This document shows, in pieces, positions 16,795 to 29,808 of a DNA stretch of 64,000 nucleotides. The stretch's first letter is position 1. Every line of letters starts with the position of its first letter. The stretch spans positions 1,531,501-1,595,500 of the forward strand of contig NZ_CP049074.1 in assembly GCF_013343295.1 (NCBI RefSeq), in the 5' to 3' direction. This stretch comes from Metallosphaera tengchongensis (GTDB taxonomy: Archaea; Thermoproteota; Thermoprotei_A; Sulfolobales; Sulfolobaceae). Below the pieces are notes generated by a model. It was not told the DNA's origin, did no database searches, and saw only the letters and a list, made by a program, of their open reading frames with translations. The translations under genes were made by a program, and so were the position numbers.

Positions 16795-17109
16795 TACCCC
16801 CAGATAAGTGCGCTAAATTTTTCCAATACGATACATTTTGGCAAAAGTTCGGAGTTTATTTGAAAAATCCCATAAAAATATTTGGGTTTTATAATTGACG
16901 AATGCGTTCCTCTTTAGAGCTGGGGAAAGTCAGACTCATCACCCTGCCTCATCCTATAACTTAACGCATCGTCCTTTAACCGTGACCCTCGACTTAGTAC
17001 TTCTCTTCAACGTTCCAGTTGTAAGATTGGTGAGGGAAGTATGATGGGAGGATAGGTCAGTTTCTACCATAAACCGCTACGTAAGGTTCATCATGTCAGA
17101 GAGGAGTTT

Positions 17110-17392
17110 GGGTTTCATCGGGTCTCATGCTTGATATCAACCCTCAACCCTTGTCACGGGGGTCGAGCGGGTCTTCCTTTATCCTCCTCCGCCCCATTAG
17201 TGGGTAACCCCAACCCACCTAGATGGGATACCACCTAAGTGGGAAACCCTCACATCTCAAGTTATCTTACTCCCTTTCGGGACACATACCCACATCTGGG
17301 GTAAGACCTTTTCTGTCGTGTAAGATATCAATATGGAGTTACATAAACTTAATTCTCCCACTGAAACTGCTTATCACGGCTTTTCCTCCTAT
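17110..17392 (-). repeat. Structured repeat, copy 1 (possible ncRNA)
   Basis: One of three related elements (others at 21662-21944 and 29057-29327). Read on the minus strand it goes from GCCGTGATAAGCAGTTTC to the conserved tail GAGACCCGATGAAACCC. It has stem-loops at the same places as the other copies: a GTCTTAC...GTAAGAT long-range stem, a CCCGAAAGGG hairpin, and CCCATCTAGGTGGG followed by TTGGGG. Unlike copies 2 and 3 it lacks a good internal TATA box, so it may be decayed. It fills most of the 660-bp gap 16795-17454; the rest (16795-17109) shows nothing I can name. Confidence 0.6.
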
Positions 17393-19644: not shown

Positions 19645-19990
19645 TCATAACACCATTTTATATGTATTTGGAACATTATTTTTTTTTAAAAAAACTAAGG
19701 AGTAAATACGGCATAGATCTGACCTCCTCCCCGCGCTAAAGGGCGAGGCTCCCTTAGAGCAGTTCACCGGTCTATGGATTACCGCCTTCATCACCGCTTC
19801 ATTGCTAGTTGGCTTTAACGCCCACAACGCTTCACTCGTCCAGCGGTAGACCAAAGGCTGGGCCCTCAGCCAGGTTACCCCTATCCCTTGGGTAGAGGAG
19901 CTTTCACTCCACCCTCCTAGGGGCTCGGGGATATGTATTGAGAAGGAGGGACATATTTTTTACTACTTGCTTTTTTGCCCCCCAAAAAGT
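19645..19990 (-). pseudogene. C-terminal relic of a second tnpB subfamily with its right-end hairpin
   Basis: On the minus strand the stretch codes for SEALWALKPTSNEAVMKAV and then KGASPFSAGRRSDL, the tail style of Sulfolobales tnpB proteins. It runs directly into a hairpin (19717-19755) ending GGGGAGGAGGTCAG. No upstream tnpB domain survives. This relic occupies most of the 550-bp gap between the tRNA and the PIN operon. The recognition of the tail rests on memory of tnpB C termini, so it is tentative. Confidence 0.5.
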
Positions 19991-20124: not shown

Positions 20125-20835
20125 ATGACGTTATCACTGGAACTTAAGGATGCTATTGGAGAAGTTTACTCGCTGACCGCTACTGAAAAACAGTCGAGAC
20201 TGATTGGGGTTCCATACAACTACCATACTGAAAGGATAGATGAGCACGTAGAGAGACTACTTAACGATGAAGAGTTCGAGAAGGATATATTAAGGGTCAT
20301 GGCCGGTCTCTTCAACTTTTTATCGTCACATGATATTGGCGATTTAGCTAATTTACAGAGCTTCCTGGAAGAGAAATACTCGCAAAAGTTGGAACAGCTT
20401 AACAGGCTCCACAAGTTACTAGAAAGACTTCCTGCTAAGGAATACAAAGAATACTGGTTAAAAAAATATTATGAGGTACTTCAAAAACTCGTAAATGTAG
20501 AGGGAGAGTTCCTAAAGACCGTTGAACAGAGGGAAGGAACGAACACTCTAATGGAGTTTTACTATAAAGTCTTCATTGGGATATTGACCGAGCTAATACA
20601 GAGTATTAGACACCACGAGGCTGGGGAAGTAAAGGCAAAAGACGACGTAAAGCTCCGAGCATTAGTGTCTAGAGCTAACATTCTTCTCTTGACTCTCTCT
20701 TATCCAATACTTGCATATTTGCAGGGGGAAAAAGTAGATTATGAGATCCTTACGTACTTAATAGTAACCTTTGCGAAGCCTTCTGCGTTAAAGGACAAGT
20801 ATAGTATACTAATCGGTGAGGCAATTTTTGGATGA
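20125..20835 (+). CDS. Hypothetical helical protein, partner of the PIN-domain gene
   Basis: The protein has 236 residues from ATG 20125 (MTLSLELKDAIGEVYSL). The GTG at 20107 is rejected because it lies inside the operator repeat. It is almost wholly helical, with HVERLLNDEEFEKDILRVM near residue 40 and a Tyr/Lys-rich coiled stretch (KEYKEYWLKKYYEVLQKLV) near residue 110. I recognise no family. It overlaps the PIN gene by 20 bp and shares its promoter, so it is probably a partner, perhaps an antitoxin or regulator. This is inference from arrangement alone. The pair is more AT-rich than its neighbours, suggesting acquisition. Confidence 0.65.
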   Translation: MTLSLELKDAIGEVYSLTATEKQSRLIGVPYNYHTERIDEHVERLLNDEEFEKDILRVMAGLFNFLSSHDIGDLANLQSFLEEKYSQKLEQLNRLHKLLERLPAKEYKEYWLKKYYEVLQKLVNVEGEFLKTVEQREGTNTLMEFYYKVFIGILTELIQSIRHHEAGEVKAKDDVKLRALVSRANILLLTLSYPILAYLQGEKVDYEILTYLIVTFAKPSALKDKYSILIGEAIFG

Positions 20836-21688
20836 ATGTTATGTATTGGACACCAATGTACTTCTTGATTACTTATTTGACTACATAGATAAAAATAAGC
20901 ATTTACAAGCCCGGGAACTAGTTAAAACCTTAAAGAAAACCGCATCTAGTATTTACATCCCTAATGGCGTAGAATTCGAAGTACTCAAGGTAATAGCTGA
21001 ATCCTTTATGATATTGAGAGATTTAATTATATTAGAAATGCGGAAAAATGACTGGGATAACCTTTCTGTAAAGGATCGTCTGAACATTTTGGATAGGACT
21101 AGAAATGACTTCGACCAGTTATTTGATGACATTCGAAAAAAGTTCTATCCGAACACTTCTAAAGGTATCAGATTATCTATAGCAAAGAGGGTTTTCTCTA
21201 CCCTTGCTAGTCAACTTATAGATAAAAGGCTTTCCGAAATTAGAGACGATATACTTACAGAAAATAAGATAAAGGATCAGGAAGAATATTTAACTGAGAA
21301 AATATCGAAGAAATTTTCGACATTTCCTCCTTCAGTAACCATTACTAATTCTTTTGAGGAATACCTTAAGCATACAATATTTATGCGTGAGTTTGGAAAA
21401 GTAAAAAATGTTGGTCTTGGTGACCTGGTAATCTTTTATGAAATCCTTTTAGCTGTAAAAGGAAGGGTTTGTGAAACTCTTATCATTATAAGTAACGATT
21501 ACGATTTAATTACAATAAGGGAATCTCTTATAAAGAACCTAAACGATTTCATGAACTCCAGCAATAACAAAGAGCACAAGAAGTATGCTAGAGAGATAAG
21601 AGATTTGATCAGTTCTAACGTGAAAGTTGAAAAGGTGAACGAAGTAATAAACAAGATAAAGAGTAGCCATAATCAACAATTTCCGTGA
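20816..21688 (+). CDS. PIN-like domain protein (putative ribonuclease)
   Basis: The N terminus reads CYVLDTNVLLDYLFDY, with Asp12 and Asn14 in the first acidic motif of PIN nucleases. A later acidic pair occurs in SNDYDLITI near residue 227, and GLGDLVIFYEI near 200 is the expected central acidic helix. At 290 residues it is about twice the length of a VapC toxin. An inserted helical region (about residues 60-185) lies between the motifs, so this is not ordinary VapC. The start is GTG 20816, inside the end of the upstream gene. The last codons fall inside a structured repeat shared with two other loci (21662-21944). Target RNA is unknown. Confidence 0.75.
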   Translation: MRQFLDECYVLDTNVLLDYLFDYIDKNKHLQARELVKTLKKTASSIYIPNGVEFEVLKVIAESFMILRDLIILEMRKNDWDNLSVKDRLNILDRTRNDFDQLFDDIRKKFYPNTSKGIRLSIAKRVFSTLASQLIDKRLSEIRDDILTENKIKDQEEYLTEKISKKFSTFPPSVTITNSFEEYLKHTIFMREFGKVKNVGLGDLVIFYEILLAVKGRVCETLIIISNDYDLITIRESLIKNLNDFMNSSNNKEHKKYAREIRDLISSNVKVEKVNEVINKIKSSHNQQFP

Positions 21689-21944
21689 GACCATTATGAA
21701 TGTATAATCTTGGTCACTGAGGACTTTATATACAGCAAAAGGGTCTTGCCTCAGGTGTGAGTCTGTACCCCTAAAGGCTGGTAAGACATATGGACAGTCC
21801 AAGATGTGCGTTCCCCCATCGTCTAGGGGGCTGGGGACACCGCTAATGGGGTGGAGGAGGATGAAAGCGGGGAATCCGCTTGACCCACGTGAAGCCCTAA
21901 GGTTGAGCGTTGGGCTCAAAATATTATGAAATCCGATGAAAACC
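21662..21944 (+). repeat. Structured repeat, copy 2 (possible ncRNA downstream of the PIN gene)
   Basis: The best preserved of three copies. It begins AGCCATAATCAACAATTTCC, overlapping the last nine codons of the PIN gene. It has a TATA-like ACTTTATATAC at about 21723-21733, then a GC-rich structured core: GTCTTGCC pairs with GGTAAGAC, CCTAAAGG is a hairpin, GGACAGTCC is a hairpin, and TTCCCC pairs with GGGGA. It ends GAAATCCGATGAAAACC before CTCTTTT. Transcription from the internal TATA would give an RNA of roughly 190 bases. The remaining gap to 22097 is AT-rich with nothing further seen. Confidence 0.6.
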
Positions 21945-22097
21945 TCTTTTGTATTTAGTTATACGCTATATAGTAACCTCGTATTGTCCAAAACTTATTG
22001 AAAACATTTAATTCCCATCTCCAAGGTTAATTCCCAAGGAAATAACGCAAAATTTAAGGAATGCAACAAGAGAAAATTCCAACGGCTCTAATTTACC

Positions 22098-28829: not shown

Positions 28830-29808
28830 ACATTATGGAGTGATCTCCCTCCATATTCCTTTAATGGCTTAAGACTCTTGAAACTTCTATACCTAAGCCT
28901 TGAGTCTGTCTAGCTTGGGTTCACCTTGTGAAAATAGAAATGGTCGTGCTTAGCCGTGAAACTGTGGTAAAAGAAAAAAGGTGAATTTATTCTTGATTAC
29001 TGTTGCCTTGTTGGCGCTAAGCGCCATTGACACTACCTTTTTATCGCTAGTGGTTTTGGGTCTCATCGGATTTCATGGTTTTGATATCAACCCTCAACCC
29101 TTGACACCAGAGTTGAGCCGGGGACTCGCTCTAACCCCACAAGGGGGGACCCCAACCCACCTAGACGGTATGGAGACCCACACACCTCGGACTGTCCATT
29201 AGGCTTACCAGCCTTTCTGGTTAAGACCAACGTCCGGGGAAGACCCCTTTACTCTATATAAAGACTTCAACAACCTAGAAGGTATAAACTTAACAGTCTC
29301 AAGGAAACTGTTGACTACGGCGCTACGATCTGGATCTCTCATCCCCCTTACCGTGAAGAATGAGGAAATGCTTCATCCCCTTTACAAAAAGGGGAGAGCC
29401 CAGCTCTTGAGGATCAGGAGAAAGTAAGATTCATTGTAAAGTAGCCTCACTACCATTGTCCCGACCTCACTCTCTAAATTGCTGGAGCGATAGACTCCTG
29501 TTCATCATCTGATGAATTTAACAGAGAGTGGGAAAGAAAAGCGGCGATTATATTTTAAACACCGTTTCCTTACCATAAAATTTAAGTCCCTTTTTTATAA
29601 TACTAACACTATAATATATTGATGACTGTCCTAAGGTTTAAGTTGAAATAAAATCCATATAATATTATCATTTTAACTAAATTAATTAACCATATAGAAA
29701 TAGAAACATAAAGGCATAATATACCGCGTCGCCCTTAAGTTAGCAGAGTTTTCAAAACGGCATAGTAACTATGCTCCGTGGTTTAGGAGAGGTGGGTCTT
29801 GTGGTGGA
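28830..29808. other. Long intergenic region holding repeat copy 3 and hairpins
   Basis: No credible protein gene is seen. It contains a perfect palindrome TGGCGCTAAGCGCCA at 29012-29026, the structured repeat at 29057-29327, and a hairpin CCCCTTT-ACAA-AAAGGGG at about 29376-29394 that resembles the IS605 end hairpins. From 29560 to 29730 it is very AT-rich. Together it reads like a landing zone for decayed mobile sequences. Confidence 0.55.
29057..29327 (-). repeat. Structured repeat, copy 3 (possible ncRNA)
   Basis: On the minus strand it runs from GCGCCGTAGTCAACAGTTTCC to GAAATCCGATGAGACCC. It keeps the internal TATA-like TCTTTATATAG, the GGACAGTCC hairpin, the AGGCTGGTAAG block and the GTCTAGGTGGGTTGGGG block seen in the other copies. 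The loop sequences differ while the stems persist, which suggests selection on structure. Confidence 0.6.

Follow-up and report, generated by a model that had tools for sequence, protein, structure and literature searches.

Three repeats in the window, the 64 000 nt stretch of the Metallosphaera tengchongensis genome analysed here, are almost certainly mini-elements derived from an IS607-type transposon and devoid of tnpB. The best overall explanation, to which we give a probability of about 0.6, is that they are non-autonomous, using TnpA and possibly TnpB supplied in trans, and that they carry a guide derived from their flank. The first-pass annotation had taken them for a possible new ncRNA family, a proposal that a match to a characterised insertion sequence was to count against; such a match was found, the element being derived from IS607.

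The repetition itself is real and far beyond chance by BLAST, with 73 % identity between copies 2 and 3 (E=1.7e-24) and 73 % over 120 nt between copies 1 and 3 (E=1.9e-17). The end-to-end alignment originally described is obtained only with copy 2 reverse-complemented; the forward alignment is poor and the reverse-complement alignment good. Copy 2 thus has the orientation opposite to that of the other two, with its RNA strand + and theirs −. Copy 2 (21666..21950, +), a mini-element of subfamily A, is inserted after GCC (21666–21668) and has a degenerate right end, GATGAAAACCTCTTTT. Its left end (21666..21737, +) shares homology with the region of full-length IS607 elements that holds their left end and tnpA promoter (nhmmer, 60 bits; full-length left ends in L073 and L074) and includes, by sequence and alignment, the TATA-like box TTTATATA (21725..21732, +). 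A remnant of the tnpB zinc-finger codons (SCPRCG...SRK.GK; 21741..21836, +), recognised by nhmmer and by comparison with the intact tnpB of L057 and L061, has an internal deletion of ~50 nt and forms the 5′ hairpin region of the predicted RNA. The 3′ guide-RNA scaffold and right end (21810..21946, +) were placed by fold and by covariance model R1, which matches G000:C1:1553310–1553446 with 70.3 bits, and the predicted guide is the flank from about 21951. Copy 1 (17102..17380, −; R1, 138 bits) belongs to subfamily B; its target GCC appears as GGC at 17378–17380 on the + strand, and its right end, CCCAAACTCC, lies at 17102. Copy 3 (29052..29321, −; R1, 96 bits) belongs to subfamily A. As first noted, TTTATATA occupies the equivalent place in copy 3 (29255..29262, −) and copy 2; it is missing there from copy 1. 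The tail reads GAAATCCGATGAAA in copy 2, GAAATCCGATGAGA in copy 3 and GAGACCCGATGAAA in copy 1. The gene-poor setting described earlier fits most copies, as these lie between genes; copy 2, in contrast, extends into the final codons of a PIN-domain gene (20816–21688), whose C-terminal residues SHNQQFP are element sequence. Elsewhere in the window, the − strand carries, at 811–1431, a degenerate gene for a TnpB of another lineage, and a sequence near a tRNA gene (19719–19939) has 70–76 % matches at several places in the congeners G002 and G003.

Read from left to right, the element comprises a left end that carries the tnpA promoter, then the final ~240 nt of tnpB, beginning at the zinc-finger codons, and lastly a right end. 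Several partial matches to the repeat immediately follow a TnpB gene and share its strand, and at the TnpB-adjacent loci that were read the repeat starts at the tnpB zinc-finger codons SCPRCG and runs through the 3′ end of the gene into the right end of the element. In the congener G001, an IS607 tnpA reading frame and then tnpB come after the left end. Searches of both ends with nhmmer showed them to be common to mini-copies and to full-length elements with tnpA and tnpB. Colinearity with the full-length elements indicates that the short copies comprise the left end, an internally deleted tnpB and the right end. They measure 258–327 bp in the ~36 loci in which both ends were recognised, a count from which weak left-end assignments were set aside. 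They have neither tnpA nor an intact tnpB, and are frameshifted (e.g. by indels of 2 and 4 nt) and non-coding for protein.

A complete element is present in the same genome (L068; G000:C1:~2143700–2145636), with a tnpA of 194 aa and a tnpB of 432 aa. Its TnpA matches NF033518 (transpos_IS607, 1.8e-66) and contains the Pfam domains Resolvase (PF00239) and, N-terminally, HTH_17 (PF12728), while its TnpB matches PF07282 (4e-21), PF01385 and NF040570 (guided_TnpB). Two further genes bring the intact TnpBs of this lineage in the genome to three. An intact IS607 tnpA without tnpB was also observed (L080:594–1175; G000:C1:480105–480635), with a stand-alone scaffold element ~350 bp downstream. A full-length element of the lineage is carried by Acidianus tailed spindle virus (L165; KU645528.1, 24163–28331), with a tnpA of 194 aa, a tnpB of 429 aa and a scaffold, and could possibly serve as a vehicle between genera.

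The genome is a single contig of 2 176 897 bases; BLAST with copy 3 found 43 matches in it, and searching it with a covariance model built on the 3′ half yielded 58 scaffold loci (E≤1e-5), not three. The repeats thus belong to a dispersed family. Scaffolds were found by covariance-model search in 23 of 31 Sulfolobaceae genomes, with anything from 0 to 66 per species within a single genus, and plasmids contained no match to the element. Some genomes have mostly full-length elements (G004, 17 scaffolds and 14 TnpB matches; G031, 11 and 10). Others are rich in orphan scaffolds, with 58 scaffolds to four TnpB matches (three intact) in the M. tengchongensis genome, 66 to 16 in G001, 25 to two in G011 and 31 to five in G036. 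At E≤1e-60, a threshold that may miss shorter fragments, no TnpB of the lineage was found in G009 (two scaffolds), G010 (11), G033 (four) or G035 (nine).

Reading frames interrupted by three full-length elements were restored when the left flank, up to and including GCC, was joined to the right flank after AAACCCC. At one such empty site, in a phospholipase-like gene, the joined gene reads QAPALWDYAEEY, and the corresponding stretch in five congeneric orthologues is Q[VA]P[LV]LWDYAEEY. The orthologues are equal in length across the joint, indicating that full-length insertion is exact, with GCC as the target and nothing duplicated or lost. Nearly all short copies likewise start at GCC (GCC or a one-base variant in the ~36 complete loci), and the flank is variable immediately after CCCC. 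Reading-frame restoration across the joint of stand-alone copies gave no convincing interrupted gene. Copy 1 sits between rhodanese and phosphoribosyltransferase genes that are ~610–640 bp apart here; the gap is 51 bp in the congener G002 and 87 bp in G005, and copy 1 is missing from both. In published work on IS607, tnpA alone suffices for transposition, which uses a GG target and produces no duplication (PMC6188088). At L004, a left-end-like sequence in the opposite orientation (GGGTTCACGGAAACAGTAAACTTCGGC) lies past the right end, which suggests a second, inverted element near that copy.

In full-length elements, the left-end TATA box AAGTTTATATAA lies ~27 nt before the tnpA start codon, a spacing that would suit leaderless archaeal transcripts. 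Short elements keep the left end to about the tnpA start codon and continue directly into the zinc-finger hairpin, so that an RNA initiated from the tnpA promoter would now begin with the hairpin. TTTATATA is a second TATA-like box near the predicted RNA start and is strong only in subfamily A. The TATA region of the first-pass annotation corresponds to the left end from which full-length IS607 copies express tnpA.

The mini-elements probably encode a structured RNA. Among 39 sequences from several genera, the three helices in the 3′ half of the scaffold had 96 % of cells paired and 15 double changes; neither value was reached in any of 500 shuffles, and sliding the helix partners destroyed the signal. 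In the 25 stand-alone copies of this alignment, 52 of 64 single changes kept the pair, compared with 20–40 % expected, although these events are non-independent. Within the M. tengchongensis genome, covariation among 56 distinct scaffolds was no higher than in shuffles, and private single changes broke pairs in 21 cases and kept them in two, indicating that individual copies decay. The fold appears to be respected by older changes and not by recent private ones, as would be expected under selection on spreading elements rather than on a host locus.

The 5′ hairpin core CCAGATGTGGG..CCCGAAAGG is kept in lineages with different deletions. Its closing stem is AAGGUCUUGCC/GGUAAGACCUU in full-length tnpB, GGUCUUACC/GAGUAAGAU in subfamily B, AUGCCAG/CUGGCAU in subfamily C, from another genus, and GUCACACC/GGUGUGAC in G017. 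At least two separately deleted lineages, and probably more, keep the design of promoter, 5′ hairpin, scaffold and right end. Stems said to vary between copies while remaining paired were borne out for the 3′-half helices across genera and for the rebuilt 5′ closing stem, but not for GTCTTGCC/GGTAAGAC, which decays in subfamily A (nine single changes keep the pair, 17 break it and no double change occurs), nor for GGACAGTCC, a palindrome without room for a loop that lies on a deletion junction. No consistent 5′ fold was obtained with RNAalifold on subfamily A alone or from averaged pair probabilities. In comparison with swapped controls, the variable-arm hairpin stood above background for all sequences (2/1000) and not for stand-alone copies (97/1000).

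Searches of Rfam gave no match at the gathering score or at E≤5, RAGATH-18 included, other than tRNA or chance matches. What the mini-elements keep of tnpB, its 3′ end, together with the right end fits an omegaRNA/reRNA in position, in conserved fold and in having a variable flank as guide. The ncRNA idea therefore has merit: the element probably encodes a structured RNA and has a promoter in its left end. This RNA would be the IS607-derived guide-RNA scaffold of the tnpB 3′ end and not a new, unrelated family.

TnpB is thought to aid transposon persistence: its guide, a copy of the flank, would direct it to cut empty sites. We infer that the mini-elements are transcribed and guide in trans. 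The left-end promoter would transcribe an RNA of ~190–230 nt made up of the 5′ hairpin, the branched scaffold and a 3′ hairpin, after which the guide would be read from the right flank. TnpA, and possibly TnpB, would come in trans from full-length elements. Once a mini-element is excised, TnpB loaded with its RNA would recognise GCC and the flank at the empty donor site, and such recognition would favour re-insertion or retention of the mini-element. Selection would act on the replicating lineage, single inserted copies then decaying. The guides of 25 copies matched no second site in ~0.36 Mb (overlapping) of sequence from their own genome. That a guide-RNA scaffold is transcribed, selected for element spread and used in trans is, on balance, slightly favoured.

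A simpler reading is that these are plain, MITE-like deletion derivatives of IS607 that TnpA mobilises in trans. On this view the tnpB 3′ end would persist only because TnpA or excision requires a long right end, and the RNA would have no function. The decay of copies after insertion, the failure of covariation in the home genome to exceed shuffles and the persistence of scaffolds in genomes without a detectable full-length TnpB all agree with it, and we hold it possible, if clearly the weaker candidate. It does not readily account for the retention of ~240 nt of tnpB as far as the zinc-finger codons, given that binding by the TnpA of IS1535 takes ~20–69 bp of the left end (PMC6188088). Nor does it predict that different deletions end at one hairpin, with the closing stem rebuilt from other sequence, or that scaffold pairing is conserved across genera.

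An ncRNA or regulatory RNA domesticated from the transposon by the host, and retained locus by locus because it serves the cell, is improbable. The absence of the copy 1 site from G002 and G005, the range of 0 to 66 copies within one genus and the 21 to two excess of pair-breaking private changes all argue against maintenance per locus, despite a conserved promoter and fold, a mostly intergenic location and tens of copies, which such an RNA might also display. An unrelated Sulfolobales MITE family with terminal inverted repeats, of the SM/SMN type, was considered and can be discarded with near certainty: the size is close to that of SMN1 (320 bp, PMC3718332), but the ends and interior are common with IS607 and tnpB, and the features of a classical MITE are absent, with no terminal inverted repeats of at least 10 nt found in the mini-elements and no target duplication.

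Unexpectedly, each distinct TnpB of the lineage that was read, from several genera and Acidianus tailed spindle virus (L068:1827–3125, L066, L067, L034, L037–L040, L125–L137 and L165), has LDRQ[LFY]NAS at RuvC-III, where ISDra2 TnpB has DRDENAA (D361). The RuvC-III catalytic Asp is thus replaced by Gln and the D-E-D triad is incomplete, the RuvC-II Glu motif being present where read. With the canonical RuvC-III Asp missing from all of these proteins, nuclease activity is uncertain; the complex could act with a rearranged active site, or could bind DNA under RNA guidance rather than cut it. Rearranged and inactivated TnpB active sites have been described in published work. The mini-elements might even form repertoires of trans-acting guides, tens of RNAs per genome, for this Gln-variant TnpB, parasitising both the transposase and the RNA-guided protein, but this extension is speculative and we think it rather unlikely.

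If elements without tnpA and tnpB do repeatedly keep the guide-RNA part and a promoter, this would be natural evidence that the RNA itself is selected for spread, and would offer a simple test of the TnpB persistence model in a thermophilic archaeon. Tens of trans-acting guides per genome for a few nucleases would also bear on the route from TnpB to CRISPR-like or regulatory systems.

Scaffold RNA loci outnumber nuclease genes among the stand-alone omegaRNA loci of IscB/HEARO, as they do here. The partner in the present case is TnpB, not IscB, and full transposon ends are kept, which would make the mini-elements mobile in trans. In PATE-type non-autonomous IS200/IS605 elements, a tnpB element is similarly cut down to its ends; the chemistry here is that of the IS607 serine recombinase, and the end hairpins used by Y1 transposase are absent. 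Members of the IS607 family, of which ISC1926 is a Sulfolobales example (PMC6188088), agree with the mini-elements in their ends, in CC/GG where they insert and in lacking both target duplication and terminal inverted repeats; a complete copy is present in the genome. The mini-elements differ in having neither tnpA nor an intact tnpB. The omegaRNA of Sulfolobus SisTnpB1 (IS200/IS605) likewise belongs to a TnpB from an archaeon, has its scaffold at the right end and takes its guide from the flank, but differs in its TAM (TTTAA), its IS family and the canonical D/E/D residues of its nuclease (PMC10640517). IS607 TnpB uses RNA encoded downstream of tnpB, and only 64 % of RAGATH-18 RNAs adjoin a TnpB, a third lying away from one (PMC11061315). 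The RAGATH-18-derived reRNA of bacterial IS607 TnpBs is also a structured guide RNA at the tnpB 3′ end, with a TAM of AGGAG/GAGGG (PMC11061315); the RNA described here is archaeal, has no Rfam match and is associated with the insertion motif GCC, and many of its loci arose by deletion and possess a left-end promoter of their own. Stand-alone guide-RNA loci and non-autonomous transposon ends, both of known kinds, are thus combined here in a new form.
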